A stretch of 64,000 nt of DNA, from positions 248,001 to 312,000 of the forward strand of contig JACQPN010000025.1 of the NCBI GenBank assembly GCA_016207515.1, in the 5' to 3' direction. Each line of letters opens with the position of its first letter. Within the stretch, counting starts at the first letter, position 1. The notes beneath the pieces were generated by a model. The model was not told where the DNA came from, searched no databases, and worked only from the letters and a program-made list of their open reading frames with translations. Origin of the DNA: Euryarchaeota archaeon. Its GTDB lineage: Archaea; Thermoplasmatota; SW-10-69-26; JACQPN01. The translations under genes were made by a program, and so were the position numbers. Shown piece by piece: positions 19,404-45,588 of this stretch.

Positions 19404-19759
19404 TTCAGGACCGTGGTGATGGTCTTCGTCACTGCCGCCTCGTCGAAGGGCTTCACGAGGTAGTCAGAGGCGCCGAGCGCCACCGCTTGGGCGATCTCGG
19501 ACTGCTGGCCTATCGCACTCACGATGACGACTCGCGTGTTCGGATGGGACTTGCGAAGCCCCTTGAGGCACTCCATGCCGCCCATGCCGGGCATGACGAG
19601 GTCGAGGGTGACGAGCTCCGGCTTGACTTTTGGCGCCTCCGCGAGGCATTTCTCGCCGCTTTCCGCCTCGCCCACCACCTCGTGGCCGGCTTTGGTGAGG
19701 ATGTTGCGAAGCACTTGCCGCATGAACATCGAATCGTCCACTATCATGACGCGGGCCAT
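19400..19759 (-). CDS. cheY: CheY response regulator
   Basis: From ATG 19759 the protein is a 119-residue receiver: acidic pair at Asp8-Asp9 (IVDDS), Asp53 (LDLVMPGMGG), Ser81 (VSAI) and Lys103 (LVKPF). It ends by overlapping cheC by 4 bases. A longer open frame upstream lacks coding character. A TATA-like run (minus strand, 19787-19800) lies about 30 bases before the start. MFMRQVLRN after the acidic pair is close to archaeal and Bacillus CheY. Confidence 0.92.
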   Translation of the reverse strand: MARVMIVDDSMFMRQVLRNILTKAGHEVVGEAESGEKCLAEAPKVKPELVTLDLVMPGMGGMECLKGLRKSHPNTRVVIVSAIGQQSEIAQAVALGASDYLVKPFDEAAVTKTITTVLK

Positions 19760-19961
19760 GGTATCGCTTCCGTAACGCCCGGACGCGCTTTTAACATTTT
19801 CATTGGCAAGATAGCGGAAGGATGCCGAAGGAACACGTCCGAGCGGCGCTCTGACGACGACGGCTTGGCGGCGAAAAGCCACGACCGGGACCCCGCGCCA
19901 TCCGTCCTCGCCTACCGGCAGGCTTATTCGCGGTAGCGACGGTTTCTCGGCCGGAGTTTTC

Positions 19962-24294: not shown

Positions 24295-25056
24295 ATGCGG
24301 ATGTCGCCATACGAGGTGAAAAAGACGAGATTTGCCATTAGCGCATTCGCCATGCTCGGCTTGGCGTCGGCCTTTCTTGGCGTCCCGGCGGCCGGGCATC
24401 TGGGGCAGGACGACCCCCCGATCTGGTCCGGGACCCCGTCCCAAGTCTACCAACCCGTAAACATCAACACTGTGAGGTTCGACGGCCAGACTGCACCCAA
24501 CGGTCACGCCTCTGGCTCCGTCGACCTGATTGAGTTCGACACAAAGAACATCCCGAAAGACCTCACGTTCGACGGCGTCGACTACCCGATCCCAGCATCC
24601 TCGACCGTATTCATCGAGCACTTCGCCGGGAATTGGCAGATAAACCAGGGAAACAACTTCAAGTTCCTGGGCAAAGCCCACTCACTGACCATCAGGCACG
24701 ACGGGGGCGATCCTACGTACACGAGGTCCCGCGTCCTCATCCAGACGGAGCCAGCGACCAACGGCATCGGCATCGATATGCTCCTCAACGCGGCCGGCGT
24801 GACCGTGCGGCAACACGCACATGTGCCGGCGGCGAGCCCGGTGCCGATCTACTACTTGCACGACGTGAGCAAGACGTCATCGGAAATCGCCAATTCGCCG
24901 AGCGTGACGATATCGATGGAACCCTGCAACTTCCAAGGCACGGATGGGAGCTGCTTGAGCGTGTACGACCCGGACCCGACGCTCATCAACCAATTCGTCC
25001 CGGTGGTCAACCGGCAAGTATGCCTACGTGCTCCTGAGACGCCGACGCTCTGCTGA
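24295..25056 (+). CDS. Secreted protein, first of the surface-protein run
   Basis: The 253 residues begin with a signal peptide (about 1-34: basic MSPYEVKKTRF, then a hydrophobic run to GVPAAGH). The mature part is beta-rich, with four Cys near the C-terminus (EPCNFQGTDGSCL and RQVCLRAPETPTLC), probably disulfides. Residues about 78-132 (IEFDTKNIPKDLTFDG ... NFKFLGKAHSLTI) align by eye with the C-terminal part of the next gene product (YEFEVRTEHKSITFND ... NTKFSGNATAVEI), so the two share a domain. No anchor is visible. Function unknown. Confidence 0.7.
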   Translation: MRMSPYEVKKTRFAISAFAMLGLASAFLGVPAAGHLGQDDPPIWSGTPSQVYQPVNINTVRFDGQTAPNGHASGSVDLIEFDTKNIPKDLTFDGVDYPIPASSTVFIEHFAGNWQINQGNNFKFLGKAHSLTIRHDGGDPTYTRSRVLIQTEPATNGIGIDMLLNAAGVTVRQHAHVPAASPVPIYYLHDVSKTSSEIANSPSVTISMEPCNFQGTDGSCLSVYDPDPTLINQFVPVVNRQVCLRAPETPTLC

Positions 25057-25248: not shown

Positions 25249-26172
25249 ATGAGGGGTAGAATACGGTTTTCGTGGCGAACGGCGTTGGCGCTTGCCGTCG
25301 CGGGACTGGCCGTCTCACCCGCGGGATTCGCCGGAACGCGCTCGGCCCCCGAGGTAGTAGACACTTACGGGGATACGGCCGATGCCTTCACCGGCGCGCC
25401 CGTCGAGGAGACCGACTTGGACCTCGTCGCGGCGTGGTTCACCGAAACCTCCGCGCAGTTCCAGGTCCATGTCGCCGCTGCCGACCTCACCGTGAACACG
25501 CCATCGGCGTACCGCATCGGCGTGACATCACATCTTTGGGTGGTCTCTTGGAATGCCGGTAGCGACGCTTTCACGGCGCGTGCCGGCAGAGACATCCTAG
25601 GCGGGACCTTCGGAGCTTTGTCGCCCGGCGGCGCCAACACGGATGACGGAGTGGCCACCATCGCTTTCGATATCGCGGCCGACGAGATCACTATTACGTT
25701 CCCGCGCGCTTTTGCGGACGCGCTCACCGGCCAACAGTGGGAATTCGGGTCTGGCACCACCTTCACGGCCCCCCGTGCCGACAGCTTCGAGGGGCTTGCC
25801 CCAGGAAGCGACCGACACGGGTGTGCCCCCTGCCGCCAACTGGACGCCGCGGCGCCAGGACGCGATTTCACGTTCTCGTCAACGATTCGTAACCTTTACT
25901 CCGGGACCAACCCGGAGGGAGCCACCATCGACACGAATTACGTCAAACTCCTCGGCGTCGCGATACACGACCAGCGCGGGACCGGGAGCTTCGCGACGTA
26001 CGAGTTCGAAGTCCGCACGGAGCACAAGTCCATCACCTTCAACGACGTGAACACCGATCTCCACATCGGGGACGTCGTGCTCATCCGTGACTTCTCCGGA
26101 AGCTACGTCATCTCCGCCCAGAACACGAAGTTCAGCGGGAACGCGACGGCCGTGGAGATCACGCGGGCCTGA
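25249..26172 (+). CDS. Secreted two-module protein
   Basis: The 307 residues have a signal peptide (about 1-29, ending GFAG). Module 1 (30-205) matches the N-terminal part of the next, 1435-residue protein: both have PEVVDxxGD near the start and a closing GC(A/S)PC pair followed by APGxxFTF. Module 2 (about 220-307) matches the secreted protein at 24295. It thus bridges its two neighbours. The Cys pair could form a disulfide. A TATA-like CCTTAAAC (25217-25224) lies about 28 bases before the ATG. No enzyme motif is visible; I infer a surface-structure role. Confidence 0.72.
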   Translation: MRGRIRFSWRTALALAVAGLAVSPAGFAGTRSAPEVVDTYGDTADAFTGAPVEETDLDLVAAWFTETSAQFQVHVAAADLTVNTPSAYRIGVTSHLWVVSWNAGSDAFTARAGRDILGGTFGALSPGGANTDDGVATIAFDIAADEITITFPRAFADALTGQQWEFGSGTTFTAPRADSFEGLAPGSDRHGCAPCRQLDAAAPGRDFTFSSTIRNLYSGTNPEGATIDTNYVKLLGVAIHDQRGTGSFATYEFEVRTEHKSITFNDVNTDLHIGDVVLIRDFSGSYVISAQNTKFSGNATAVEITRA

Positions 26173-26176: not shown

Positions 26177-29100
26177 ATGCCAAGACAAAGCGCCCAACGA
26201 CCATCGAACATCCTTGCGGTTGCCGGTACGCGGCCGATCCATTACGCGCTTGTCATGCTCGCCGTTGTCTCGATTCTACTCCCTTGGACTGCTTCGGCGG
26301 GATCACCCGGCAATCCTGAGGTGGTTGACCCCTCTGGCGATGAATTCGACCCGATCCAGAACCAACACGTGGACGCGCCGAACTCCGACGTGTTGAGCGG
26401 CTGGTTCGAGGAAAGGGGCGACGACCGTTTCGAGGTCCACTTCCGGCTGCAGGACATCAACGGGGCGTTCAGGGATGGGACGAACTCGCAGGTGTGGAAC
26501 TTCTACTGGGACGAGCCGGGCGGGCGCTCGTGGCGCGTTTCCGTGTTTCGCGACAGTACCGGCGCCAATCCACCCTTCGCAACACTGGATTCACCCGGCG
26601 ACACCGCGATCAACGTGCTGGCCGCGCCAACGCTTGACCAATCCAAGAACGAGATCGCGGTGACGGTCCCACGAAGCTTCAGCATCGCGATTCCGAATGG
26701 AACGGCGACCGAAACGGCAGTAGTCTGGGAAGACGGCACCACGTTCGTGAACCCGTTGGTGAGAAACCAAGACGGCCTTGGGTCCAGCGGCTGCAGCCCC
26801 TGTAACGAGGTGGACACGACGGCCCCTGGGTCGAGTTTCACGTTCAAGTCGAACCTCTCCTACAACCGCCACGTCACCGTCCGGCCCACCTCAGCAATCG
26901 TCGCCGCCGAGCCCGGCCGGGACACGACTATCTCCTTCACTGCCTCTTCGCCTCCCGGTATTGCGATCGACCTCACGACCGATCTACTTGCGAAACTGAG
27001 CATCGACGGCTGGCGTATCGACGGCAACTCGCTCGGTCTCAGCGTCCTTCCCGGGAAAACATCCTCCCTTGCCTTCACGGTGCATGTCCCGGCGTCGGCG
27101 AAGCCCGGCGAAATGGGATTGCTGACCATCGATGGCGGGGACGTGCCCGTGAGCGTCCTTGTCGTCGTCGGAAAAGACGAGGCGGAGAAGGTGAAAGCGC
27201 TCCAACTCGGTCCGGACTTCTCAAGCACGCCCGCCGCGTCCACTCTTCATCTCGTAGGCGTCACGGTGAATAGCGCCTCGGAACCCGTCGTCCCGGGCGA
27301 TCTCGTGCGGGACGCGCCGAAGGGCACGAATGAGCAGTTGATCGCACGCACGTTCGCGTCGACGGACGCGATCCTTCCCTTCGGGACGTGGCGCACACTC
27401 CCACTGGAGAACGATCTCACGCTGTCGGGACCGCTCGAACTGGCGGTGGACGTGGATTGGACGAACACGCAAGGCACGACACTTCTCGCACTTGTCGGTC
27501 CCGACCCGCTTCCTCTTGACTGGGACGGGATCACGGCGCCCGCCGGTACCGTGAAACTCGTCGGCACGGCCCAGGCGGCGACGAACGCGCGAGCGTTTCT
27601 CAAGGCGAGCGGGACGGCCGACGACTTTTCGCTCGCAAGGGGTGATGCGCTTTCCGTCGCAATCTTCGTGGCGCAATCCCAAGGCACGGGAAGCGTCCAA
27701 CTCCACATCTTCACGCTGGTCTCGGATTCGCGTCTCAATTTCACATACCTCGATAAGACGCTGGCACCCATCGAAGGCGTCGCGCTTCCCGGCGGGAAGA
27801 ACGCCATCTATCTTACGGGCTCCCCGGCGCCGTTGGGGCTTATGACGTACGGCAACGTGACGGGACTCGCGGTCGGGCCAAGTGGCGAGACCGTGCTTTC
27901 CGTGGGTTCGTCGCCGAGAGCCGCCGTCGTAGGCGATTCCTCTAAGAAGCCTGCGAGCGACACGACGAGCGATTCGTTCCTTCGAAGCGACGCGACGGGA
28001 ACCACGAAGAAGATCGCTTTCGACATAGGCGACGACGTGCAATCGGTGAACGTGAGACTCTCCGGCCAACACGCCGCGGTGAGGACGCGCGACACCAATA
28101 TCGACCTCGAAGTGTACCGGTTGGGCGGCACCAACCGCACCATCGTGAAAGCGTCCCGGGCCAACGGACCCGAGGAGAACGTCACGGTGTCGAGGGCGGA
28201 TCTCGAAAAGTTCGGGCGTGGCCCCTACGAGGCGGACGTGATCCTCAAAGCCGTCGGGCCAACGAGCATCTCGCCCACGGTGACGTTCGACATCACCGTC
28301 ACGAAAGGGTTCTCCGAGCATGTCCCGGACGCCCTCGTCGAGAACTGGCTTCTTTGGGATTACTCGGGAGAGCCCGCCGGAAACTACAGCATTTCGGCAC
28401 GGCGCGGCGCTTCGCCTGCCGTCGCTTCGGCGCCGTTCCTTCTCACTTCAATCGGCCCGACCCTTCCCCCCGTGGCCGGATTCGTTTTCTCGCCCATCCT
28501 TCCCGCCGTGGGCGACAGCGTGAACTTCGCCGACGTGTCGGCGGATCCCGATGGCCGCATCGTCTCGTGGTCGTGGGATTTTGGGGACGGCGCGAAAAGC
28601 GACCAGGTGACGCCGACGCACACGTACGCAGCAGCGGGGAACTACCCTGTAGTCCTCGTTGTCACCGACGACTTCGGGGCCGTGTCTTCGGCGTCGGTCC
28701 GCGAAGTCACCATCGTCGCCTCCCAGACCGGCCTGCCGACGGACGGCATCCCGAGCCAGGGGACGCTCGGCATCTACAAGGATCTCTACGCGAAGGGTCT
28801 CACCCATGTCGAGGCATACACGGACGCATGGCTCGGTAGCGAGATCTCAGGCGCGCCAGGAAGGGAATACCTTCCGGGGCGAGGGGTTCAAGCCTACGTC
28901 CATGGTACTTCCTTGAACGCCGCGGTCGTCACCACCTGGAACGGCGGAACGCTCTCGCTCACCAATCTCTTGGGCGGCGTCTTGGGCTTCGATCGCGGCG
29001 AGGGCCTGCAATCGCTCGGGGAGGCGCGCGTGCGTTCGCTTCCCCCGAAGAACGTCACCGTGAACGGTGGGCCACAGGAACTCCAGGGGTTTTCCGCCGC

Positions 29101-30484
29101 TCCCCAGCATCACGACGACGCGAACGACGGGCTCTTGATGGTCGAACTTTCGCACCTGCGTGGCACCTTGAACGCGAAGCGTACGCTCACTTTCCTTGAA
29201 GGCACGCTCCACGGAGACGTTAGAAACGTCATCCGTTCCTCGCCCGGCGACACCCTGAACCTCACGACGGAGACCGTCATCACGGCTCCGTCAGGCTCGT
29301 GGCTCGCACACGCATCGGGAGCGACCGTACACACCTTGCGGCTCGTCGACGGCGAGGCTGTGAGCGTCACGTTCGACGCCGGGAACGGTTGGTTCGCGGT
29401 GTATAGGCCGACCGACGTTTCCGTCGCCGGCGTCGTCTTCTCTGGCGATGCTAGGTCGGCGACGGCGACGCTGTCAGGAGCGCTTCTCAGGATACGGACC
29501 GACTACGAAGCCGTCGGATCGCTTCTGTCCGCCCAGTACATCCTCGCTTACGACGTGGCCGACACGGACGCGACGCGCTACGCCGGGGTGATGGAGATCG
29601 CTCACCAGGACGAAGAAGAGATCGGGACCGCGGTCCTTGCAGACGACCGCGCCGCGGCCGTAGGCTGGGCGGGGGCCCGTTCCACGATGGAGGCGGGTGT
29701 GGCCTCGGGGCTTGCCGCGGATTGGACCGCCTTGAACGGGTTCCCGATGGAATGGGACCTCCGGGTCGAGGCCCCTTCGACGCAAGGCGGAGAGGCCGTG
29801 CGTCTCATACTTCCGGCCCACGTGCTCGCGGACGGTTCCGTGGCTTTCACCATCGACGGCGCCGAGTTGTCGCTTTCGAAGATCGCGGCGATGAGCGACG
29901 ACGTGACGCTTGTCGCGCTGGCGCCGATCGACCATTTCAGCGTCCGTAGCGTACAGGTCCGAAGCGTCGTGCCGGGCCTCGCGCCCATCTTCCTGTGGGC
30001 GACGTTGGGCCTTGGCGCGATCGTGAGCGCCGAAGCGCTGGTCCTGGCCCGACAGGCACTTGGCGGTGGCGCCGCGGCGCGCGGCACGGAACGGTTCGGC
30101 GCCGGCACTCAAAGCGCGGCGGTGAGGCGGGCGCTCGGATACGCGCCCGACGACGAGGGACCATCCGGTTCCGGCGAGACGCGCGAGGTGAAAGGCATCA
30201 TCGCGGGGGACCGGGAACGAATGACTAGCGACCGGTTGCCGTCGGGCGCTCAAAGCGACGCCGTGCGAAAGGCGCTTGGGATGGACGCGGAGACACAGGC
30301 CGCGAAGGCAGCGCTCCTTGCGAAGCTCGCGGGGCCCGCGGCACCCTCGGGACCCAAGGGGCCAGACCTTCGACCGGCGGAAGCGAAATGCTCTCGTTGC
30401 GGTCAACCCGTCGCCTTCGCCAAGGACGCTGGGTCCGCAACGTGCGCCGCCTGCGGCGCGATGAACACGAGGCGAGAGACATGA
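26177..30484 (+). CDS. Large surface protein: PKD domain, shared stalk, one membrane helix, cytosolic zinc ribbon
   Basis: From ATG 26177 the protein has 1435 residues: signal peptide (about 20-42), a module shared with the previous gene (45-220, with GCSPC), beta-rich domains, and a PKD domain at about 765-850 (DGRIVSWSWDFGDG ... HTYAAAGNYPVVLVVTD). The family stalk module follows at about 870-1260 (LEGTLHGDVR, YILAYDVAD, IDHFSVRSVQV), then one membrane helix (about 1265-1290). The cytosolic tail has two copies of a QSxAVRxALG motif and a terminal zinc ribbon (CSRC, CAAC). The open frame extends upstream into the previous gene; ATG 26177, 4 bases after that stop, is the sensible start. It overlaps the next gene by ATGA. 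Confidence 0.85.
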   Translation: MPRQSAQRPSNILAVAGTRPIHYALVMLAVVSILLPWTASAGSPGNPEVVDPSGDEFDPIQNQHVDAPNSDVLSGWFEERGDDRFEVHFRLQDINGAFRDGTNSQVWNFYWDEPGGRSWRVSVFRDSTGANPPFATLDSPGDTAINVLAAPTLDQSKNEIAVTVPRSFSIAIPNGTATETAVVWEDGTTFVNPLVRNQDGLGSSGCSPCNEVDTTAPGSSFTFKSNLSYNRHVTVRPTSAIVAAEPGRDTTISFTASSPPGIAIDLTTDLLAKLSIDGWRIDGNSLGLSVLPGKTSSLAFTVHVPASAKPGEMGLLTIDGGDVPVSVLVVVGKDEAEKVKALQLGPDFSSTPAASTLHLVGVTVNSASEPVVPGDLVRDAPKGTNEQLIARTFASTDAILPFGTWRTLPLENDLTLSGPLELAVDVDWTNTQGTTLLALVGPDPLPLDWDGITAPAGTVKLVGTAQAATNARAFLKASGTADDFSLARGDALSVAIFVAQSQGTGSVQLHIFTLVSDSRLNFTYLDKTLAPIEGVALPGGKNAIYLTGSPAPLGLMTYGNVTGLAVGPSGETVLSVGSSPRAAVVGDSSKKPASDTTSDSFLRSDATGTTKKIAFDIGDDVQSVNVRLSGQHAAVRTRDTNIDLEVYRLGGTNRTIVKASRANGPEENVTVSRADLEKFGRGPYEADVILKAVGPTSISPTVTFDITVTKGFSEHVPDALVENWLLWDYSGEPAGNYSISARRGASPAVASAPFLLTSIGPTLPPVAGFVFSPILPAVGDSVNFADVSADPDGRIVSWSWDFGDGAKSDQVTPTHTYAAAGNYPVVLVVTDDFGAVSSASVREVTIVASQTGLPTDGIPSQGTLGIYKDLYAKGLTHVEAYTDAWLGSEISGAPGREYLPGRGVQAYVHGTSLNAAVVTTWNGGTLSLTNLLGGVLGFDRGEGLQSLGEARVRSLPPKNVTVNGGPQELQGFSAAPQHHDDANDGLLMVELSHLRGTLNAKRTLTFLEGTLHGDVRNVIRSSPGDTLNLTTETVITAPSGSWLAHASGATVHTLRLVDGEAVSVTFDAGNGWFAVYRPTDVSVAGVVFSGDARSATATLSGALLRIRTDYEAVGSLLSAQYILAYDVADTDATRYAGVMEIAHQDEEEIGTAVLADDRAAAVGWAGARSTMEAGVASGLAADWTALNGFPMEWDLRVEAPSTQGGEAVRLILPAHVLADGSVAFTIDGAELSLSKIAAMSDDVTLVALAPIDHFSVRSVQVRSVVPGLAPIFLWATLGLGAIVSAEALVLARQALGGGAAARGTERFGAGTQSAAVRRALGYAPDDEGPSGSGETREVKGIIAGDRERMTSDRLPSGAQSDAVRKALGMDAETQAAKAALLAKLAGPAAPSGPKGPDLRPAEAKCSRCGQPVAFAKDAGSATCAACGAMNTRRET

Positions 30485-32091
30485 TGAAAAGGATCTCGGT
30501 AGGCCAGGCACTGCTCGTTGCGTCCTTGTTGATCGCGACGCCGATCGTCGCGTTGGGCGCCACGTGGGTGTCGTGGGATGAGGAAAGAGACGCCCTCGCG
30601 CACCATTCATTCCCGTCGGCCGGCGCCGATGACGATTCCGTTTGGACGGCAGTTGGAGAGTCGCGCGCCTCGGCCGAGAACGGCGTGGTGGCGCGGGAAG
30701 GCGCGGCGGTTGTCGACGTGACTTTGCCGCGCGTATCCTCTATTGACGATTCGGCGCCAGGATTGAAAACTGGCGGCACTTACGCAAGCGCGGGCTCGGC
30801 GACCGTCACGCGCACGCTCACGCTTCTCGAGGGGACCTCGCACGCAGACATCCGCACCAAGTTGGCAAGTTCGCCCGGGCCCCCGTTGGAACTGGTCACC
30901 GAAGTGAAGCTTTGGGCACCCGAAGACGCACGCGTCGCCTATGGGGATGCGACGGGGTCCAAAGATGTGTTACTCGACCCGCTTACCCCTACGACCCTCG
31001 ATTTCGCCGCGAAGAGCGCTTGGGTGGCCGTCTTTGATCCCTCGACGAGAACCACCGCGGGGGTCGTCCTCGCCGGTCCAATGGAACGGGTGGCACTGCG
31101 TCTCGTAGACAACGGACTGTCGGTCACAACGACGTGGCGCGGTGTCGGCTCCCTCGTAGGCGCCGAGTACCTGACCGCGACGGACACAGTCGCTGCGGAA
31201 CAGCCGTTTGAAGCGCTCTCCCGATTGGCCGAGCGCGAGCGCTCGGAAGTCGGCACGGCGTTCCTCGGCGACGGCTACACTGCGGCCGTCTCGTGGCGGT
31301 CAAGCGATGCCGAGGTGACGACCGGCGCCTCGTCGACCACGACCGATTTCGTGGACAGCCTCGGCGGCGAAGCGCGCTCATGGATGCTCTCCATTTCCGC
31401 CGACGCGGGTAACGGGGGCAAGGCGATGCGTTTCGTCGTCCCCCAACGACTGGCGGACGGGTTGGTGCCATCTGCGACGCTCGATGGGGAACCTGTGGGC
31501 CTTGAGCGCGCCGCCGAATCGCGAGGAAACGCCTCCTTCACGCTAGTCATCCCGCACTTCAGCCTTCGCACCGTACAGATCAAGTCCGTGACCCCCGGGG
31601 TGCCGCCCATCTTCATGTGGCTCACCATCGGCCTCGGCACGGTCGCGACCGGTGGCGGCATCGCGATCGGGAGCAGGATGCTAAAGTCGAAGGCGGCGCG
31701 CCTTGGGATCGGCGAGGCGGCGGCTGGCGGCGGGGGCGGAGGTTTCACGGGACCGCGTAGCGCCGCCGTCCAACGTGCGCTCGGCAGCGCCGACCAGCTT
31801 GGAGGCGGCGGCCCCGCGGAGGGCGCCCTGAAGAGCGAGGCGGCAAGGAGAGCGATGGCCTCGGAGGCCGTGATGAAAGCCGGGCTGGACGAGTCCACGC
31901 AGGCGGCGTTGAGGAACGAACTGCTCATGAAACTGGGAGCACCCGGTTCGACGACGAAGCGATCCGGAACGGCCGCCCGGTCCCATTACGCGCGCTGCGT
32001 CCAGTGCACGAAGCCCATCCGGTTCGACCCCGGGCAGGCGTCCTTGAAGTGCCCGAATTGCGGACGCGAAAACTTGAATGAAATGACGTGA
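30481..32091 (+). CDS. Surface protein with shared stalk, membrane helix and cytosolic zinc ribbon
   Basis: This 536-residue protein starts at ATG 30481, overlapping the stop of the previous gene. Signal peptide about 1-28 (ending VALG), then almost only the family stalk module: LTLLEGTSHADIRT, AGVVLAGPMERV, EVGTAFLGDG and IPHFSLRTVQIKSVTPG. The membrane helix is at about 372-395. The tail has RSAAVQRALG and related repeats (KSEAARRAM), a Gly-rich spacer and a zinc ribbon (CVQC, CPNC) ending NLNEMT. It looks like a minimal member of the family, with little besides the stalk. Confidence 0.85.
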   Translation: MMKRISVGQALLVASLLIATPIVALGATWVSWDEERDALAHHSFPSAGADDDSVWTAVGESRASAENGVVAREGAAVVDVTLPRVSSIDDSAPGLKTGGTYASAGSATVTRTLTLLEGTSHADIRTKLASSPGPPLELVTEVKLWAPEDARVAYGDATGSKDVLLDPLTPTTLDFAAKSAWVAVFDPSTRTTAGVVLAGPMERVALRLVDNGLSVTTTWRGVGSLVGAEYLTATDTVAAEQPFEALSRLAERERSEVGTAFLGDGYTAAVSWRSSDAEVTTGASSTTTDFVDSLGGEARSWMLSISADAGNGGKAMRFVVPQRLADGLVPSATLDGEPVGLERAAESRGNASFTLVIPHFSLRTVQIKSVTPGVPPIFMWLTIGLGTVATGGGIAIGSRMLKSKAARLGIGEAAAGGGGGGFTGPRSAAVQRALGSADQLGGGGPAEGALKSEAARRAMASEAVMKAGLDESTQAALRNELLMKLGAPGSTTKRSGTAARSHYARCVQCTKPIRFDPGQASLKCPNCGRENLNEMT

Positions 32092-32308
32092 TGCAAAACG
32101 GCACCTGCCGGAACAACGACTGGTGGACCGCGGCCTTGCCGCCGAACCCCGGCGTCGGGGCCGCGGACCGGTCCTTGCGGGCGGCAGATCATCGCCGGGT
32201 CGACCCCCGAGGGACACAAAAGTCGACCGCACCCATCCACCACTCTTTTATGCCATTACACCGATGGAGCGCGAGATCATGGGCCCAAGGTCAGGGGGAC
32301 ACTGACGT

Positions 32309-32704
32309 TTGACACGTTACCTGGTCGGCAAGGGCAGCCTTTCGATCCGAAAGACGTCGAGGGGCGCCTTGGATTCCGTCGAGCATGAAGAGGCCGCGGT
32401 CGCCGAGGCCGGCGACGCGACGGACGCTGTCGCGCGGCTCATCCGACCGGATCCGAAGGTCGTGTTCCTTGACAGGATATCGCCGGGCGAAGCGGACGGC
32501 GTGGTTTCGAGGCGCGCGATGTCTTCGCAACAGTCCCAGGCGCGCCTCGTCCCGACCACGATCATTCCGCAGGACGACCCGGACGTGCGATCCGCAACGA
32601 CCATCGGCGCGTCCGGCCGACTTATGAAACCGATCCGGCAGGAGGACGCGCGAATGATCCACCACGGCGTCGAGGAAGAGACGAGCGGAGCCGGGCCCAT
32701 ATGA
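32309..32704 (+). CDS. Degenerate CheY-like receiver (pseudo-receiver)
   Basis: The 131 residues align with the CheY at 15975: MTRYLVGKGSLSIRK against GRRYLVVDDSLTIRL, and VVFLDRISPG against VVFMDIEMPR. The acidic pair is replaced by Lys8-Gly9, while Asp55, a Thr (about 83) and Lys107 (LMKPI) remain. Loss of the metal-binding acids means normal phosphorylation is unlikely. The start is TTG with a G-rich sequence upstream. Its stop overlaps the ATG of the next surface-protein gene (ATGA), so it is translationally coupled to a membrane protein with a cytosolic tail. I infer a phosphorylation-independent binding role, or a decaying gene. Confidence 0.7.
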   Translation: MTRYLVGKGSLSIRKTSRGALDSVEHEEAAVAEAGDATDAVARLIRPDPKVVFLDRISPGEADGVVSRRAMSSQQSQARLVPTTIIPQDDPDVRSATTIGASGRLMKPIRQEDARMIHHGVEEETSGAGPI

Positions 32705-34254
32705 TGACCCGCCCCGCCTTGATCGCCGTGCTGTTTTCCCTATCGATGGTCGCGAGCGTAGCGGCCGCCACTTGGACCGGGACTTCCCCCGCTGGCGATA
32801 GGATCGATTTCGACCTCGACCATTCGTCCGTCTCGCGAGACAGCCGTATAGCGACCGTTCGGCTCCCTGAATCCGTTTCGATCGACGGCTCTTCATCAGC
32901 GATCACGGGGGCGCTGTCCCCGGTCGAAGGCGACCATGCGGCCGCCATGACGACGCGAAGCGCCGACCTGACTTTTGGCGTGGGACGTGGCGGATGGACA
33001 GCGACGATCCTCAAGGGCACGCGCCACACGGACTTGCGCCTCAACACCGTCGCGGCCGGCCACGACATCGCGTTCGAGACCGTAGTCACTCTTTCAATCC
33101 CAGGGGCGGCCGAGATCGCTTTCGGTGAAGGAGCCGAAGTGGAATCGCTTGCTTTTGATTCGTTCACCGACGAACACCGGCCCGTTTCCAGCCCGAACAT
33201 GTGGGTAGCACTTCGCGGCGCCGACGGGGGATATGCGTCCGTGGTCCTTGCAGGAGATCTTCGAGACGTTACGGTGTCGCGCGCGGGCAACGCCCTGGCG
33301 GTGACAGCGGGCTGGGCGGGCGAGGACGCCGTGGATGCCGGCCACTACGTTCTCCTTGGACGTGCCTCCGGCGCCGCTCCTTACGACGAAGTCATGGAAC
33401 TCGCCCGGATGGATCGGGAAGAGCTGGGCCTTGCCTACCTTGGGGTCGGCGTGGGTGCGGGCGTTCCATGGGTGAACGGGGCCCGCAGCATAGACGTCGC
33501 CGCGACCACGACCGGATCCGATTGGTGGGAAGCCTTGTGGGGGACGACGAGGGCGTGGACGATCCAGGTCGAAGCGCCGGCCGCTCAGAACGGGAAACTC
33601 CTCAGGGTCATCGTACCCACCGAACTTTCAGGGGAACTCAGTCCGAAAGCGACGATCGACGGCATGCCCGCCGGCCTTGCGTCATCGTCCACGATGGAAG
33701 GGGACGGCACGGATTCCTTCGCGGTCCGGATCCCCCACTTCAGCCTTCGCACTGTACAGATCAAAACAGTGACGCCAGGCGTGCCTCCCGTCTTCATGTG
33801 GCTGACACTCGCGCTGGGCGCCGTCGTGGGCGGCGAGTCGTTCATACTGGCGAGAGGCACGCTTCGATCCCGCGCAGCGGCACGAGGCGCCGCGGGAGGC
33901 TCTTCGGGCGGCGTGGAGCTACGCTCGAAAGCCGCAGCACGCGGCATGGGGCCCGGCGCTGGCGGGGAAGGGCCGCAGACCCCGACGTCGGGGGCTGCGA
34001 GGTCGGAGGCGGTGCGGCGTGCGTTGGGCGAAACGCCGCGGGGCTCGGCCCCTATGGGCGAGACGGGGGATACCGAGTTCAAGAGTTCGCTTCTCAAGAA
34101 ACTACAAGAAGGCACGGGGGGCCCGCCTCAACCCGGGGCACGCGCCCGCTACGCTAGATGCAATGCATGCGCCAGGCCCATAGTCTTCGCGCCAGGCGCG
34201 GCGACCGTCGTATGTCCCCACTGTCAGGCGCAGAACGTGAATTCGGAGACCTGA
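32701..34254 (+). CDS. Surface protein with shared stalk, membrane helix and cytosolic zinc ribbon
   Basis: This 517-residue protein has a signal peptide (about 1-22, ending SVAA), the stalk module (ILKGTRHTDLRL, ASVVLAGDLRDV, MELARMDREELGLAYLG, IPHFSLRTVQIKTVTPG), a membrane helix at about 356-380 and a cytosolic tail with RSEAVRRALG and a zinc ribbon (CNAC, CPHC) ending NVNSET. It is very close in plan to the 30481 product. Translation is coupled to the pseudo-receiver gene before it. Function unknown; the architecture suggests an outside sensor or structural element reporting to a cytosolic partner. Confidence 0.85.
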   Translation: MMTRPALIAVLFSLSMVASVAAATWTGTSPAGDRIDFDLDHSSVSRDSRIATVRLPESVSIDGSSSAITGALSPVEGDHAAAMTTRSADLTFGVGRGGWTATILKGTRHTDLRLNTVAAGHDIAFETVVTLSIPGAAEIAFGEGAEVESLAFDSFTDEHRPVSSPNMWVALRGADGGYASVVLAGDLRDVTVSRAGNALAVTAGWAGEDAVDAGHYVLLGRASGAAPYDEVMELARMDREELGLAYLGVGVGAGVPWVNGARSIDVAATTTGSDWWEALWGTTRAWTIQVEAPAAQNGKLLRVIVPTELSGELSPKATIDGMPAGLASSSTMEGDGTDSFAVRIPHFSLRTVQIKTVTPGVPPVFMWLTLALGAVVGGESFILARGTLRSRAAARGAAGGSSGGVELRSKAAARGMGPGAGGEGPQTPTSGAARSEAVRRALGETPRGSAPMGETGDTEFKSSLLKKLQEGTGGPPQPGARARYARCNACARPIVFAPGAATVVCPHCQAQNVNSET

Positions 34255-34285
34255 AAGGAAAAGCCAGGGAAGGGTTTGGAATGGA

Positions 34286-37200
34286 ATGCGACTCCAACGT
34301 GAACCGGCGAGGTGGCCTCGATTGAGCCCACGTGCCGCCCATGGAGGCCCGCATGGCCACCGGCCGGGTCTTCGCCTCGCCCTGGTCGCCCTTATCGTCC
34401 TCCTCGTTTCCATGCCTCCAATAGGGCCCTTTGATGAGAGCGCGTCCGCCGCGCTAACGTCCGTCTCCGACGCGCGACTCCCGTCCGCCCGGGAGCGCAC
34501 GAGCGCTGTCTTTGATGGTCAATACGCATTCGTCTTCGGAGGCCGCAACGAGGCAGGTTACCTCGACGACATCCTGAAGTACGATTCGGCGACGGGGACC
34601 GTTGTGAAGATGCGGGCCGTCCTTCCGCGTGGACTCGCCGCGACGAGCGCCGTGTGGACGGGCCGGTACGCCTTCATCTTCGGCGGCCTTTCCGGGGAAT
34701 CGACGCAAGGTGCCCTCGAGAAACGCATTTTGCGCTACGATCCCCAATCGGATGCGCTCGCGATCATGGGCGCGACCTTACCGGCCGGGCTTGAAGGGAC
34801 CATGGCCGTCTGGGACGGAAGGCACGCCCACGTGATCGGGGGGCGTACCCTTGGATTGTCCGTGTGGGACCGGATCGTCCGGTACGACCCCGCGCGCGAT
34901 GAGGCGACGCTCGCGAGCGCGAAACTTCCGCGTTCCATCTCCTACGGTAGCGCCGTCTGGGACGGCGATGGGGCGACTGTCTTCGGAGGCGTCGAATCCG
35001 ACCCCGTGACGCGCTTCGAGACGCCGCTTTCCTCCATCTTGCGGTACGACCCGGTGGCGGAGGTCGTGTCCACGCTTACCAACACTCTCCCAAGTGCCCG
35101 CCAATTCGCGTCGGCCGTGTTCGACGGTAGCGACGCCTACGTCTTCGGCGGCCGGAACGCGACGGTCCCGCTTTCCGAGGTCCTACGCATCGGCCCCGCC
35201 GCAACGGACGTCTCCGTGATGGATGTCTCGCTTCCTTCCGACGTCGCCGCGGCCAGTGCCGTCTGGGACGGCGAGAAAGCGACGATCTTTGGCGGTTTCA
35301 CGGAAGGCGCTGCAAACGGCACTCGGCTTCTTCGCCGTAGCATCATCGAGTACGACCCGTCGGGGAGCCCGGCATCGATCGAACGGTCGACGGCGATCGC
35401 GAGCCTCAACGCTACGGGTGCTGCGTCCACGTTCGACTCGTTCATCGAGGGCGCCCGTTCGTTGTCGGTCGACGGGCGCTATCTCGTCTTCACGTCCTAC
35501 GAGCCGACGCTCGTCGCCGGTTCGGACGCTTCCGGCCCGCAAGTCTACCTAAGGGACATGGAAACGGGGCAGAACTTCCTCGTCTCCGCGACCGTCGCGG
35601 GAAAAGCCGGTAATGGCGTCTCGGAGCAGCCCGCGGTGAGTGCCGGCGGACGCTACGTCGTCTTCGTCTCGAACGCAACGGACCTCGTGACGGGTGATTC
35701 GAACGGAAAACGTGACGTGTTCGTCAGGGACATGGCCCAAAGATCCACCTCGCTCGTAAGCGCTTCGGCCGCCGGGTCGCTCGCGGACGGGGATTCCTAC
35801 GAGCCGGTCGTCTCCTCCGAGGGGCAGATCGTGGCCTTCTATTCCTACGCCACCAATCTGGTGCCCGGCGATACGAACAGCATTTCCGACGTGTTCGTCG
35901 TGGACCGCGGCGCGAAGAACGTTTCGCGCATAAGTGTGGGGGCGGGCGGACTGCAATCGGACGGCGGCAGTTTCGCGCCGGCGATCTCGTCCGACGGACG
36001 TTACGTGGCCTTCCGCTCGACGGCGACGAACATCGTCACAGGCCGGTCGAGCAACATCCCCGGCATCTTCGTGACCGACAGGCTCCGAGGGACGACGGCG
36101 CTCGCGAGTGTGGCGACGGACGGGACGCAAGCGAACGATTTCTCGTTCAGGCCGTCGATAAGCGGCGACGGACGCTACGTCGCGTTCGAATCCGACGCCA
36201 CGAACCTCGTGCCGGACGACACCAACCGGGCGCGCGACATCTTCATCCGCGACGCGTCCGCGGGAACGACCCGCCTTGTCACGGTCTCGACGTCGCAGGC
36301 CCAGGCGGATGGGGCCTCGCGTAACGCTGCCATCTCGACCAACGGCCGGATCGTCGCTTTCGAATCGGACGCAAGTAACCTGGTCGGCGTCGACGAGGCT
36401 GGGCTCACGGACGTCTACGTGCGCGACCTCGACAACCTCACCACCGAGGCCGTGAGCGTTTCGACATCGGACGCAACAAGCGACGACGATTCCTCGTTCC
36501 CATCTGTGAGCGGGAACGGCCGCTACGTAGCCTTCACTTCGAAAGCTTCGACGCTCGCGCCCGGGAACGGAGACCACGCAAGGAACGTCTTCATCCGCGA
36601 TCGCAGCGCCCAGGAAGTCGCCTCGTGGCTCACGGCAGCACCCGACGTGCCGGTCCTGACGGTTTCACCCGCGACGGCCGATGGGAAGGAGGGCTGGTAC
36701 CGGACGACGCCGACCGTGACGCTCTCCGGTGGAGCGCGAGAACGGATCATGGTGAGCCTCGACGGCGGATCTTCGACGATGTACGAGGCCCCCCTCACGA
36801 TCGGGGAGGGCTCTCATTCGCTGGTCTTTTACGCCGTGAGCGGGGCCGGTGTGCGTAGTGCTGCGGGGCGTTTCTTCGCCGCGGTGGATTCGGTCGGCCC
36901 ATCGCTGTCGGACGTATCGGTCGAGCCCGAGAGTCCCGTCCAGGGAGCAAAGGCGTTCGTCAATGTATCCGCCTCGGACGCGACTAGCGGCGCCGTGAGG
37001 ATCGAGGGGACCCTGGAATTCAGCGATGCCCTCGGCAAGCAAGCGCGTTCCACCATCGGGCTCGTGACGTCGGACAACGTCTTCTTCTCCGGAGGGTTCG
37101 TCCCCTCCTCGACGGGCCGGCATGTCTTGACGCTCGTCGCCTTCGATGAGGCCGGAAACAGCGGCAATCTCTCGACGACCTTCGATGTGTCGACCGCAGC

Positions 37201-38938
37201 AGGCGTCGAGGAACAGGGGAACGGGACGGAAGGCGACGACGTAACCGGCGGCAACGACACAATCGAAAACGGGACCTCCGACGGGACCGGCGGCGACGAA
37301 CCCGGGCAAGGAGGGACCGTCGAAGAGTATTCCGCCGCGTACGCGGCGGGCGAATCTCACGACGAGACCTACACAGAGGAGCGGCGGGACGCGGAACTCG
37401 TCGGCGCCGCTGGTGAAGACTACATACAACCAACAGGCGGGCGCGCCTCGTACCTCCAAGGCTCGATCACGGGCGTCCTTGGAAGCGACGCGGCAGAGGA
37501 TCTTTCGACAGGTTTCGAGAACGCCATCGGCGTCGAGACCGCCTTCGCGGACGGGACCGCTAGCCAAGGGGTCGGCGAGACGAAGGTCGAGGCGGAGGCC
37601 CCCAAGGAGGCTTTGGTGGCCGGTGTAAGCGTGGACCTGTCCCACGCGGACCTTCGCGCGGGCGACGTGAAGAAGGACGAGGCTGCGCCGGGCCTCTTGG
37701 CCGGGGAAAAGACCGTGGTGAGAGACGGGACCGAGATGTGGCGGCGCTTCGCGCTTCTTGAAGGTACCCTGCACTCCGATTCCCGTACTCGCGTCCGCGT
37801 CGCGGGAAGCGAAAAAGTCACGATCACGGGGGAAATAGCGCTGGAAGCACCGGCTGGATCCTGGCTTGCGACCGAGGAAGGGGGAAGGGTGCGAGCAGTT
37901 CCCGTGTCGAAGGCCGGCGGACTCGTATTCCAAGGCGTTCCTGGAGAGAACCGTTGGTTCTCCGTCTACAATCCCGCGACAACCGACGTCGCCGGCGTGG
38001 TCCTCTCCGGAAGCGCGCCGAGCGTCACCTTGCGGGTCGACGGGACCCGCCTCATCATCGTCCCGGAGCGTAGCGGCGCGGGGGAGGTGCTCGCGGCGGA
38101 GTACCTACTCGCGTACAAGGTCGCCGATCTCGGCGCCACGCGCTACGCCGGCATCATGGAACTCGCGCGCGAGGACTCGGAGGAAGTGGGTGTCGCCTTC
38201 ATAGCGACCGGCCGCCACGGGGCCAACGGTTGGGCGGGAAGCCGGGCGGCGTTGTCGATAAGCGCCGAGCCCGGCGAGGCGCAGCCATTGGACCAGAGCA
38301 CGGTCTCCGGCACGTGGCGCCTTGTCGTTGACGCGAGTTCGGAGAACGGGGGAAAGACGCTTCGGACGATCATGCCCGCCGGCTTCATGGATGTGGGTGG
38401 CCTCGACATCGAACTCGACGGTGTCGCCGTGAATCCGCTTGGACTCGGGGGCCTCACGGATGGCGAGACGCTCATCCTTACGTTCCCGATCCCCCATTTC
38501 AGCGAACGGACGGTCGTGATCCGGACCGTGCTTCCCGGGGTGCCGAGCTTCTTCCTCTGGTTGACGCTCGGTCTCGGCCTTGTCGCAGGCGGCGAGGGCG
38601 CGTTGTTGCTTCGCATGACGCTTCGATCAAGGGCGGCCGCACGCGGGTTAGGGGAACCAACCTCGCGGGGCCCGCGTTCGGAGGCGGTGCAACGGGCCCT
38701 TGGGAAAACGCCGCCTTCCAAGAAGGGGTCTGACCTTGAGGCAGAAGGCGCGACGCCCCCCGGTTTCAAGAGCGAGACGCTACGCCGGATGCAAGAGCGG
38801 CCGACCCCCCCCGGCGATTCACCGCGTGCGCGCTACGCGCGCTGCCGAAACTGCGATGCGCCCATCATGTTCGAGGCGGGAGCCGTGAGCGCGACTTGCG
38901 ATTCCTGCGGGGCGCAGAACGTCAACGAGCCGACCTAG
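34286..38938 (+). CDS. Giant surface protein: kelch and PD40-type propellers, shared stalk, membrane helix, cytosolic zinc ribbon
   Basis: The protein has about 1550 residues. After a signal segment (about 28-55) come six kelch-like repeats (AVFDGQYAFVFGG, AVWTGRYAFIFGG and four more; about 70-350). Seven TolB/PD40-like repeats follow (SGDGRYVAFESDATNLV type; about 390-775), then a beta sandwich (about 790-980) and an acidic Gly/Asn/Thr linker (about 985-1020). The family stalk is at 1030-1410, the membrane helix at about 1415-1440, and the tail with RSEAVQRALG at 1441-1517. The zinc ribbon (CRNC, CDSC) ends NVNEPT. Propellers bind partners or glycans, so this is probably an adhesin or receptor. 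Start not certain; ATG 34286 gives a plausible signal peptide. Confidence 0.85.
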   Translation: MRLQREPARWPRLSPRAAHGGPHGHRPGLRLALVALIVLLVSMPPIGPFDESASAALTSVSDARLPSARERTSAVFDGQYAFVFGGRNEAGYLDDILKYDSATGTVVKMRAVLPRGLAATSAVWTGRYAFIFGGLSGESTQGALEKRILRYDPQSDALAIMGATLPAGLEGTMAVWDGRHAHVIGGRTLGLSVWDRIVRYDPARDEATLASAKLPRSISYGSAVWDGDGATVFGGVESDPVTRFETPLSSILRYDPVAEVVSTLTNTLPSARQFASAVFDGSDAYVFGGRNATVPLSEVLRIGPAATDVSVMDVSLPSDVAAASAVWDGEKATIFGGFTEGAANGTRLLRRSIIEYDPSGSPASIERSTAIASLNATGAASTFDSFIEGARSLSVDGRYLVFTSYEPTLVAGSDASGPQVYLRDMETGQNFLVSATVAGKAGNGVSEQPAVSAGGRYVVFVSNATDLVTGDSNGKRDVFVRDMAQRSTSLVSASAAGSLADGDSYEPVVSSEGQIVAFYSYATNLVPGDTNSISDVFVVDRGAKNVSRISVGAGGLQSDGGSFAPAISSDGRYVAFRSTATNIVTGRSSNIPGIFVTDRLRGTTALASVATDGTQANDFSFRPSISGDGRYVAFESDATNLVPDDTNRARDIFIRDASAGTTRLVTVSTSQAQADGASRNAAISTNGRIVAFESDASNLVGVDEAGLTDVYVRDLDNLTTEAVSVSTSDATSDDDSSFPSVSGNGRYVAFTSKASTLAPGNGDHARNVFIRDRSAQEVASWLTAAPDVPVLTVSPATADGKEGWYRTTPTVTLSGGARERIMVSLDGGSSTMYEAPLTIGEGSHSLVFYAVSGAGVRSAAGRFFAAVDSVGPSLSDVSVEPESPVQGAKAFVNVSASDATSGAVRIEGTLEFSDALGKQARSTIGLVTSDNVFFSGGFVPSSTGRHVLTLVAFDEAGNSGNLSTTFDVSTAAGVEEQGNGTEGDDVTGGNDTIENGTSDGTGGDEPGQGGTVEEYSAAYAAGESHDETYTEERRDAELVGAAGEDYIQPTGGRASYLQGSITGVLGSDAAEDLSTGFENAIGVETAFADGTASQGVGETKVEAEAPKEALVAGVSVDLSHADLRAGDVKKDEAAPGLLAGEKTVVRDGTEMWRRFALLEGTLHSDSRTRVRVAGSEKVTITGEIALEAPAGSWLATEEGGRVRAVPVSKAGGLVFQGVPGENRWFSVYNPATTDVAGVVLSGSAPSVTLRVDGTRLIIVPERSGAGEVLAAEYLLAYKVADLGATRYAGIMELAREDSEEVGVAFIATGRHGANGWAGSRAALSISAEPGEAQPLDQSTVSGTWRLVVDASSENGGKTLRTIMPAGFMDVGGLDIELDGVAVNPLGLGGLTDGETLILTFPIPHFSERTVVIRTVLPGVPSFFLWLTLGLGLVAGGEGALLLRMTLRSRAAARGLGEPTSRGPRSEAVQRALGKTPPSKKGSDLEAEGATPPGFKSETLRRMQERPTPPGDSPRARYARCRNCDAPIMFEAGAVSATCDSCGAQNVNEPT

Positions 38939-39018: not shown

Positions 39019-40044
39019 GTGAGCGTCGTCATCGTCGACGATTCACTCTACATGCGCACGGTCCTCGCGGAGCTTCTCCGCTCCGCCCGGGTCGAGGTGG
39101 TCGGCCTCGCGGGAAGCGCACGCGACGCGATGGGGATGATCGGGAAACTACGACCCGATGTCGTCCTCGTGGACCTCGAGATGCCAAGAACCGACGGGCT
39201 GGCGCTTCTTGACGCGATAATGGCGGAGGCGCCTCGGCCTGTCGTCATCATGGTTCCCGGGAAGGACGTGACGAAGGCCGTCGCCCACCGGTTCGAGATA
39301 CGAGGCGCCGCAGGCGTTGTGAAGAAACCGAGGAACGTGGCGACCGAGACGCGTACGGGCGAGGACCTCGTGAATGCGGTCATCGCCGCCGCAACGAAGG
39401 GGAACGTCACCGGCTACCTTTCGCGCCCCGATGAACCGGGTCTCGCGACACGCCTCGTCGTCATCGCTTCGTCCGCTGGCGGGCCGAACGCCCTCACGGC
39501 GGTCGTTCCGCGCCTTCCAGTCGACCTCGCCGCGGGAGTCGTGGTAGTACAGCACATGCCGGCCGGCCTCACCAAGACCCTGGCCAACCGGCTCGATTCC
39601 GTCTCGAAGCTCCCCGTGGCGGAAGCCGAGGACACCGAGCCCATACACGAGTCGAGCGTGCTCCTAGCGCCTGGCGGCTGGCACCTTCTCATCGAACTCG
39701 TGCGCGGTGTTCCCCTTGCGCGTCTTAGCGACTCGCCGCCCATCGCAGGACTACGCCCCCGCGCCGATCTCACCCTCGAATCCGCGGCCAAGACGTTCGG
39801 GCGATCCACCGTCGGTGTCGTCCTCACCGGCATGGGGGAGGACGGCGTCAAGGGGATGAGCGCGGTCAAGGCCAACGGGGGCAGGATCCTCTGCCAGGAC
39901 GCCGCCTCGTCCGCGATCGACGGGATGCCGCGGGCCGTCCGGGACCGTGGCCTAGCGGACGAAGTGGTGCCGCTTGAGGGCCTTGCGGACCGGATAGCCG
40001 CCACGGTGAAGGCCATCCCGGCCATCGGCGTCGCCGACCGATAG
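39019..40044 (+). CDS. cheB: Chemotaxis methylesterase CheB
   Basis: This two-domain protein (about 341 residues) has an N-terminal receiver (IVDDS; VDLEMPRTDG with the phospho-Asp; VKKPR) and a C-terminal methylesterase with the catalytic triad stretches SSAGGP (Ser), VVQHMP (His) and TGMGEDG (Asp). It removes methyl groups from receptors. In the receiver the usual Thr/Ser position reads MVPGK, as is common in CheB. I chose GTG 39019, with GGAGG at 39004-39008; ATG 38959 is an alternative that adds 20 residues. It directly follows the surface-protein gene at 34286 and precedes a cheC. Confidence 0.92.
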   Translation: MSVVIVDDSLYMRTVLAELLRSARVEVVGLAGSARDAMGMIGKLRPDVVLVDLEMPRTDGLALLDAIMAEAPRPVVIMVPGKDVTKAVAHRFEIRGAAGVVKKPRNVATETRTGEDLVNAVIAAATKGNVTGYLSRPDEPGLATRLVVIASSAGGPNALTAVVPRLPVDLAAGVVVVQHMPAGLTKTLANRLDSVSKLPVAEAEDTEPIHESSVLLAPGGWHLLIELVRGVPLARLSDSPPIAGLRPRADLTLESAAKTFGRSTVGVVLTGMGEDGVKGMSAVKANGGRILCQDAASSAIDGMPRAVRDRGLADEVVPLEGLADRIAATVKAIPAIGVADR

Positions 40045-40124: not shown

Positions 40125-40733
40125 GTGGAACTCTCGGCGATGGAGCGCGACGCGCTGAAAGAGATCGGCGAAATGAGCGCCGGAGCGACGTCTGCGTCGA
40201 TCGCAAAGCTCACCGGGCGTCGAACGACGCACGTGACTTCCCAGACCTACGAGGTGCCGGCGCGCGAACTGGCGACTGCCCTTGGCGTCACGGGTCTTGG
40301 GATCGCCGGTGCCGCGACGAAGCTACAAGGCGACATCCGGGGAGCGATGTTGATAGCGTTCCCGGAGGAAAGCGCCAGGGAGGTCGCCGACCTCATGCAA
40401 GGCAAGAAACCCGGGACGACGCGGACCCTCGGCCCGCTCGAACAATCTGCGTTGAAGGAGCTCATCAATGTCGCCACCGGCACGTACCTCAAGACGTTCT
40501 ACAATTTCCTGGGCTTCGAGGTCGACTACGGGGTCCCAACGATCGCCTCCGCCGGGTGGGAGCCCCTCATGAAATACACGTTCCTCGGGAGCACTCCTGG
40601 CGCCGAGCGGGTCTGGGCGGTGGGAAGCACCCTCGACCTCGGCATCACGCAGAACGGCAGGCTTTTCCTGCTTCTCGACGCGACGGGCGTCAAGCGCGTC
40701 GTCGACGCGATCCACAAGAAGACCCAGGGTTAG
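40125..40733 (+). CDS. cheC: CheC phosphatase with one altered site
   Basis: The 202 residues have two CheC helices. The first, ERDALKEIGEMSAGATSAS (about 6-24), keeps Asp and Glu, but the Asn of D-x-x-x-E-x-x-N is Glu. The second, EQSALKELINVATGTYLKT (about 105-125), has an intact S-x-x-x-E-x-x-N. CheC dephosphorylates CheY and, with CheD, sets adaptation; no cheD is in the window. Start ATG 40125 may be GTG/TTG-shifted by a few codons. It lies 80 bases behind cheB, likely the same transcript. Confidence 0.88.
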   Translation: MELSAMERDALKEIGEMSAGATSASIAKLTGRRTTHVTSQTYEVPARELATALGVTGLGIAGAATKLQGDIRGAMLIAFPEESAREVADLMQGKKPGTTRTLGPLEQSALKELINVATGTYLKTFYNFLGFEVDYGVPTIASAGWEPLMKYTFLGSTPGAERVWAVGSTLDLGITQNGRLFLLLDATGVKRVVDAIHKKTQG

Positions 40734-45200: not shown

Positions 45201-45588
45201 CGCGGTGACGAAGGTCGCCTCCGCCGAGAAGATCGAGATACTTGTCGACAGCGCGAGCCAGGTCGGCAAGTCGATCGTCATCTCGCTCGACCGAGAGACC
45301 GTCTCCGGCCTCATCAAGGGCGAAGCGGAACTCCTGGTCGACGGCAAGGTCGTCTCACGGGCCTCGAACTACCAGGACGCCTTGAAACCCGACGCGGACA
45401 AGTACTGGCTGATAACCACCGAAGGCGAAGTGGGCCTGCAGGCGATCGTCACGTTGAGCCACTTCTCGACGCGGACGATCACGTTGCAGACGCCGCCGCC
45501 GCCGTCGATCTACCTCTACACGACCATCGGTCTTGGAGTGGTGGTCGCGGCGCAGGCGATCCTTCCGAGGATCCGCCGCAAGTGGTAG
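42223..45588 (+). CDS. 1121-residue Ala/Ser-rich surface protein with three tandem repeats
   Basis: The signal peptide is about residues 1-34 (ending AEAQ). The mature chain is very rich in Ala, Ser, Thr and Val and poor in Cys, and consists of three repeats of about 350-360 residues. Each opens with a (V/F)GxFxV-type strand followed by a GSGQ/GSIV stretch (near residues 49, 416 and 770). Shared landmarks are SAD-type strands with FxA, 'VYVNG/ILVSVNG/ELLVDG' turns and a (Y/W)xxTTxGxV phrase. It ends LSHFSTRTITLQT, one membrane helix (about 1095-1115) and RIRRKW. The end is like the zinc-ribbon family stalk end but without the ribbon. I infer an S-layer-like or fibre-forming protein. Confidence 0.82.
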   Translation: MPSGTRTQNKARVLIILLALSFVAPYALPFAEAQGGLSSATSAATQAKSVGTFDVAPVEGATGSGQAEGSIVSTTVVESTTDPALKDTVLQSFTVASSGETSASAELFTDVKIAGFVPTSKIQGAGTSSVTLKSADALISVTDNVNSLLVIKATGSADQEVTFDAPAGVTFNKRASANIVDVQSSAAGAVSGAIVLVSAKGEASVASGSSIAATTSSQAKATLKSDTQLIFRANSEYSGSADVSSYNQAVVEAIASARLAGEATTEFSSGASLLANANYFSSASAKTEAKVENRVTTQVKAAANAAAAASAAASGGYSLAYDLDYVNVPAQSASNVAVYVNGALATRVNTPAEVNTKAAGSAESYYATTSEGRVLVLASTATRASASTITIASVPDASVAAKTLAQLDAQLGVTSQVQGSFNVLGNLQTSAEGSGQVIGSFDSFFASEAKGDANVESYSDVRSSTEIFAKIDFAAHAAADATASVTSAASAGASGASAANMDTSVASSIVASATFTDAVYSSIVAEAKAATTTRWTLGSDVSATAISDTVARIDGPKGTLGYLFIAKADGSAASTSKLDTNAAADAKAAVEARLAAGESIIFRGSAEAQAKVNAEIIAKAVAAGQVASEVNVGIVANAVSSANVDYTSSVDAAVNAAASHRGTVQVDVTGKVQQATAVVLTADRPSLPAASASDILVSVNGQAATQASTAAEVFAAASAAASASAGAKYFVQTNLQGQTQIITSLPNLAANVASKVVVTSKLEADARAKAALDVFGSFKAGYGGAATGSIVSMVAKPDAGLILDYTVATKSKADVSAATTNVFDAVKVGSSAFAQASASSANSIRFTNEQAVLEAFDTSSAVMKITATAQTTANFDLGSNIQARSAASGVLMLTSSDFVGALILTKAEGGAAAGSSFNTAASAQGEITANLAAGSQVIFKAFSGFEAELTAAEQQAQAEAIAKGQLLGQVIVDTNAATSATATANVNYYANVAAVTKVASAEKIEILVDSASQVGKSIVISLDRETVSGLIKGEAELLVDGKVVSRASNYQDALKPDADKYWLITTEGEVGLQAIVTLSHFSTRTITLQTPPPPSIYLYTTIGLGVVVAAQAILPRIRRKW

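Follow-up and report, generated by a model that had tools for sequence, protein, structure and literature searches.

A family of predicted surface proteins with a repeated tail motif, mostly encoded beside chemotaxis genes, in a Thermoplasmatota archaeon

Gene arrangement and domain composition

The analysed window, a stretch of 64,000 nucleotides from an archaeal genome of 2.67 Mb (G000, 98.4% complete), contains a run of plus-strand genes in which p1, p2, the receiver-like p3, p4, p5, cheB, and cheC follow one another consecutively (Table 1). Their spacing is operon-like. The p1/p2 and p3/p4 pairs overlap by 4 nt, and the gaps amount to 217 nt between p2 and p3, 31 nt between p4 and p5, about 80 nt between p5 and cheB, and 80 nt between cheB and cheC, which bears out an earlier note on this DNA describing the genes as coupled or close on one strand. 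Family matches confirm the CheB and CheC that the note had placed among them, together with a receiver-like p3 and, elsewhere in the window, CheY. The four family genes lie between cheY and cheB/cheC.

The proteins p1, p2, p4, and p5 are paralogues, as had been proposed. In a six-frame search of the genome, p2 retrieves p4 with E=1.4e-70 and p1 with E=6.1e-57. Pairwise identity among the four is 23-37% in the shared ectodomain, 31-50% in the membrane-proximal part, and 33-64% in the helix. Each protein has a signal-like N-terminal helix, a single predicted C-terminal membrane helix (weakest in p2 by hydropathy), and a CxxC-x14-CxxC pattern near the C-terminus. The outer parts are indeed variable, but they are distributed differently from the earlier description: kelch and PD40 repeats both belong to p5, the PKD domain belongs to p1, and p2 and p4 are without a large head.

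A fifth paralogue of 2945 amino acids with kelch and Ig-like repeats is encoded elsewhere in the genome (7250-16087, minus strand, of locus L008, G000:C23). It retains the predicted supersandwich domain, anchor, and helix described below, and carries four copies of the tail motif. It has no ribbon, and a ribbon lost downstream is excluded, as none is found there in any frame. The gene lies between amino-acid-biosynthesis-type and CTP-synthase-type genes (named from reading the ORFs), and no che gene was seen beside it. This paralogue, the repeated tail motif, and the junction common to the 42223-45588 protein were all absent from the earlier note.

Two further genes of the window are recorded here as separate observations. 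ORF 45731-47254 combines an ATC_hydrolase-type domain with a C-terminal V4R domain. ORF 59957-61297 (minus strand), next to COX1, matches partial COX15/CtaA and UbiA and is an apparent heme A/heme O synthase fusion.

Table 1 Features of the locus, with positions counted from the first letter of the window.
Feature	Position	Strand	Basis or remark
CheA, CheW, soluble PAS-MCP, ParA/MinD-type ATPase (chemosensory core)	9962..14685	-	
CheR	14820..15755	+	
Second CheC-like protein and CheY	18771..19762	-	
Secreted protein, family unrecognised; opens the same-strand gene run	24295..25056	+	no Pfam/NCBIfam match
Secreted protein, tandem paralogue of p1 N-terminal domain (32% over 197 aa), 4 nt upstream of p1	25249..26172	+	
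p1, 1435 aa: N-terminal domain, PKD, supersandwich, membrane-proximal domain, TM, motif tail, ribbon	26177..30484	+	
p1 beta-supersandwich (galactose-mutarotase-like) domain, predicted	28946..29704	+	AF2 model, Foldseek
p1 membrane-proximal beta-domain, predicted, ending in IDHFSVRSVQV	29741..29971	+	AF2 model, sequence comparison
p1 transmembrane helix, predicted	29984..30067	+	prediction, AF2 model
p1 tail motif QSAAVRRAL	30110..30136	+	second copy QSDAVRKAL at 30251
p1 zinc ribbon CSRC-x14-CAAC	30389..30454	+	cysteine pattern
p2, 536 aa, headless paralogue	30481..32091	+	start overlaps p1 stop by 4 nt
p2 tail motifs RSAAVQRAL and KSEAARRAM	31756..31857	+	
p2 zinc ribbon CVQC-x14-CPNC	31996..32061	+	Zn_ribbon_19 E=0.055, under cutoff
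p3, degenerate receiver domain	32309..32704	+	overlaps p4 start by 4 nt
p4, 517 aa, headless paralogue	32701..34254	+	
p4 tail motifs RSKAAARGM and RSEAVRRAL	33922..34026	+	
p4 zinc ribbon CNAC-x14-CPHC (LSD1-like)	34159..34224	+	zf-LSD1 E=0.0086, under gathering score
p5, 1550 aa: kelch and PD40 repeats, then shared domains, TM, tail, ribbon	34286..38938	+	
p5 tail motifs RSRAAARGL and RSEAVQRAL	38624..38701	+	
p5 zinc ribbon CRNC-x14-CDSC	38843..38908	+	
CheB, receiver and methylesterase	39019..40044	+	Pfam
CheC-like protein	40125..40733	+	
Ala-rich repeat surface protein, 1121 aa; only HFSTRT and helix anchor common with the family	42223..45588	+	

Predicted fold of the shared ectodomain and the membrane-proximal anchor

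The shared ectodomain of p1, p2, p4, and p5 has no match in Pfam or NCBIfam. Among PDB sequence relatives, the sole match is an S27e ribbon at chance level (E=0.7), and none covers the shared ectodomain. AF2 models of the last 589 aa of p1 and of p4 (517 aa), built from an input alignment of the four sequences only, reach a pLDDT of mostly about 80-95 in the ectodomain core. With these two models, Foldseek retrieves GH38 mannosidases (E=4.5e-8 and 6.8e-9) and the P1 domain of YidC (E=1.5e-7 and 5.1e-7), further GalM and related glycosidases with both models, and OpgG/OpgD or MdoD. The models yield 89 and 65 PDB matches at E<=0.001, the best ones listed being mostly supersandwich structures with a probability of 1.00. 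Normalised by target length, the TM-scores reach about 0.5 at most (YidC P1), a borderline value that corresponds to a match at the level of the fold only.

The shared ectodomain is predicted to comprise a beta-supersandwich, the fold of the galactose-mutarotase-like superfamily, which both models adopt, and a second, small membrane-proximal beta-domain. The models and Foldseek matches place in this fold the region that had previously been taken for a stalk; it is predicted to be globular and near the membrane, with no long stalk. In the alignment of all five paralogues, a D, an H-D-R, a W, and an E position are invariant. Compared to galactose-mutarotase-like proteins (GalM, GH38 and GH36 domains, OpgG, YidC P1), the predicted fold is alike in two paralogues, and YidC P1 is, like the family ectodomain, membrane-tethered. 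In contrast to these proteins, the family has neither an attached catalytic domain nor a sequence match to them, and its head, anchor, and tail differ. From the fold, we infer that the supersandwich probably contacts glycans or the glycosylated envelope of the cell. To our knowledge, YidC P1 is not known as a sugar binder; because it has the same fold, the fold alone is no proof of glycan contact.

The last approximately 90 residues up to and through the helix form an anchor with the pattern IPHFSxRTVxI ... PGxPxxFxWxTxGLG. The junction noted before as IPHFSxRTVQIxxVxPG is present, but p1 deviates from it (IDHFSVRSVQV). An hhalign comparison (probability 97.9, E=5e-13) shows homology of the anchor with the terminal part of the 42223-45588 proteins, which groups the present family, by membrane-proximal domain and helix, with HFSxRT-anchored archaeal surface proteins. 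The anchor also occurs in relatives of the same order (G001, G002, G004) and in a genome of another class (G016). The 42223-45588 protein and its relatives stop just past the helix and, unlike the family described here, are without the supersandwich domain, motif tail, and ribbon. As the anchor is found in other surface proteins, the HFSxRT junction is, by sequence comparison, a general anchor and no hallmark of p1, p2, p4, and p5. The 42223-45588 protein itself has a paralogue on another contig of this genome (G000:C14) and relatives in three genomes of the order. The MAG contig JAJPHT010000051.1, deposited as 'Proteobacteria bacterium', encodes the archaeal-type surface protein family, and its label is probably wrong.

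Tail motif, zinc ribbon, and distribution of the family

All five tails carry two to four copies of the motif [KRQ]SxA(A/V)xR(A/G)(L/M)G. The strict form, [KRQ]SxA[AVL]xR[AG][LM], occurs nine times, compared to a mean of 0.0014 and a maximum of 1 in 5000 shuffles, and has no copy in the ectodomains. A 17-position profile matches 15 sites across the genome; 14 lie in the five family tails, and the fifteenth is weak (E=0.29). As the profile was built from these same tails, their own scores are expected, and the informative part is the absence elsewhere in the genome. Basic tails contrast with acidic ectodomains, a charge split that is consistent with an inside location of the tail. The extreme C-termini follow the earlier pattern N-(V/L)-N-E-x-T only as a loose motif, and p1 ends in NTRRET. 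In MCPs, the CheR/CheB tether is the pentapeptide NWETF. We rejected the C-terminal residues as a tether of this type; the aromatic residues of the pentapeptide are missing, and p1 deviates.

The putative zinc ribbon weakly resembles LSD1- and RpoP-type ribbons, its best weak matches, with which it has in common CxxC-x14-CxxC, PGA-like residues, and C-terminal N residues. It differs from them in scoring below the curated cut-offs (for p4, PF06943 16.4 versus 20.2 bits and TIGR01053 14.8 versus 15.5 bits) and in ending a membrane protein. The genome also encodes an RpoP-type subunit, which marks the organism as archaeal. A cytosolic ribbon on a surface protein had been called unusual; it is less so than claimed, as other membrane proteins of this genome or the order end in a ribbon (20915-21460 in the window, G000:C22, G002:C18) and the fifth paralogue is without one. 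Bacterial membrane proteins of the TcaA/YvbJ type combine a cytosolic zinc ribbon, one membrane helix, and an ectodomain, presumably differing from the family in an N-terminal position of the ribbon and in having no supersandwich. A literature search found no paper on ribbon-tailed archaeal surface proteins.

Relatives over the full ectodomain were found in none of the six other genomes of the class, none of 390 genomes of the phylum, and none of 84,980 species in a pattern-plus-tblastn scan, which may not cover the genome itself and could overlook divergent copies. Together with the missing Pfam and NCBIfam matches, this upholds the description of the family as undescribed. Weak matches in other genomes comprise the anchor module only. 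With 7 genomes, sampling of the class is thin, and the relatives found include no other member of this genome's own taxonomic family. Within these searches, the full family is found only in this genome. A viral origin was rejected, with no family match in viral contigs.

Chemosensory genes and possible roles of the family

The window encodes CheA, CheW, CheR, CheB, CheY, two CheC-like proteins, and an MCP of 455 amino acids with no evident membrane helix, the N-terminus of which is PAS-like by sequence reading, with no family match. No MCPsignal domain matches p1, p2, p4, or p5, which sets them apart from chemoreceptors. The receiver-like p3 (Pfam E=1.5e-6) keeps the Asp and Lys positions of a phosphorylatable receiver and carries KG where such a domain has the acidic DD pair; without this pair, normal phosphorylation is unlikely. 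Between cheR and an ABC permease, a 258-aa protein (16715-17491) with about seven membrane helices and no Pfam match is a possible membrane sensor.

Archaellin (PF01917) and ArlD/E (PF04659) were not found in this genome; both are present in four of the six other class genomes (G001, G002, G004, G006) and in control genomes. CheC, searched with the whole protein since PF04509 alone is too short to match even this genome, has no match in the other class genomes. The CheB matches in those genomes fall within long frames, three of which also contain CheR, and no gene of the family adjoins them. At three loci of class relatives (L038, L039, L042), CheB and CheR similarity falls into single long frames of 553-1198 residues instead of a che cluster. 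In a survey of archaea, those containing MCPs have the archaellin system, yet few strains have ArlA/ArlB (PMC9680633). The same survey proposes that pili, among other systems, may come under the control of chemotaxis systems (PMC9680633).

We postulate that p1, p2, p4, and p5 belong to a lineage-specific family of surface adhesins or receptors with a multivalent cytosolic docking tail, our best reading and one held with moderate confidence. Variable heads (PKD, kelch, PD40, or none) would sit atop a supersandwich touching glycans or the cell's own glycosylated envelope, followed by the widespread membrane-proximal anchor. Inside, the basic, disordered tail would offer two to four helical copies of [KRQ]SxAVxRALG as docking sites for one cytosolic partner, the ribbon of four members would serve as a second interaction module, and the proteins would be held in a cytosolic scaffold. 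The conservation of supersandwich, anchor, and helix in five paralogues and the heads, which are typical extracellular modules, speak for this arrangement, as do the carbohydrate-active or envelope proteins retrieved with both models, the repetition and near-exclusivity of the tail motif, and the charge split. However, no docking partner was identified, and the motif might instead associate with the membrane or play a structural part.

It is plausible that the family is functionally connected with the Che system. In the fuller form of this reading, a local Che pathway without an archaellum would be wired to the surface proteins; as input, the soluble MCP may be reached through the tails, or, as output, CheY, CheC, and the pseudo-receiver may control adhesin display. 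This arrangement is possible but rather unlikely. The consecutive same-strand genes with small gaps, the overlap of p3 with the p4 start, and the combination of Che proteins and an MCP without a membrane helix with no detectable archaellin or ArlD/E, both present in four of six class relatives, argue for it, as does the proposal that archaeal chemotaxis systems may also target pili (PMC9680633). On the other hand, CheA, CheW, and the MCP are encoded on the opposite strand at a distance of 12-20 kb, with unrelated genes in the interval, and no che gene is near the fifth paralogue. No relative in the phylum or species searches carries the family, and the class relatives have no CheC match, while three of their CheB matches share a long frame with CheR.

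That the proteins are simply adhesins of the cell envelope or associated with the S-layer, with tail and ribbon serving only to anchor, fold, or help secrete them, seems distinctly unlikely. Their ectodomains, which are large and variable and contain PKD, kelch, and Ig-like repeats, would suit such a role, and the anchor is common to other surface proteins without the tail, but the tails diverge apart from the repeatedly conserved 10-residue motif, a pattern that points to selection for binding. Least probable, and in our judgement doubtful indeed, is proteolytic release, in which an M50 protease of the site-2 type would cleave the glycine-rich helix so that the basic tail with its ribbon could act on transcription. 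In its favour, the region is flanked by two M50 paralogues that carry HExxH (8598-9827, minus strand, and 21530-22648, plus strand; 39% identical), the second lying 69 nt downstream of the small ribbon-ending membrane protein at 20915-21460, and the family ribbon resembles RpoP- and LSD1-type ribbons. Against it, such proteases are widespread among archaea, the ribbon is missing from the fifth paralogue, and neither a site-1 protease nor a DNA-binding domain was seen.

In a bolder version, the chemosensory pathway of an archaeon without an archaellum would have been rewired to surface adhesins, the Che proteins and pseudo-receiver acting through the [KRQ]SxAVxRALG/ribbon tail so that the taxis machinery would control or read surface contact instead of swimming, a proposal we regard as unlikely. 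If true, the Che link would offer a concrete, testable case of an archaeal chemosensory system in a non-swimming role, which the survey proposes but does not show (PMC9680633). Even without it, the tail motif is a defined bait for a cytosolic partner, in a field where little is known of the inside contacts of archaeal surface proteins.
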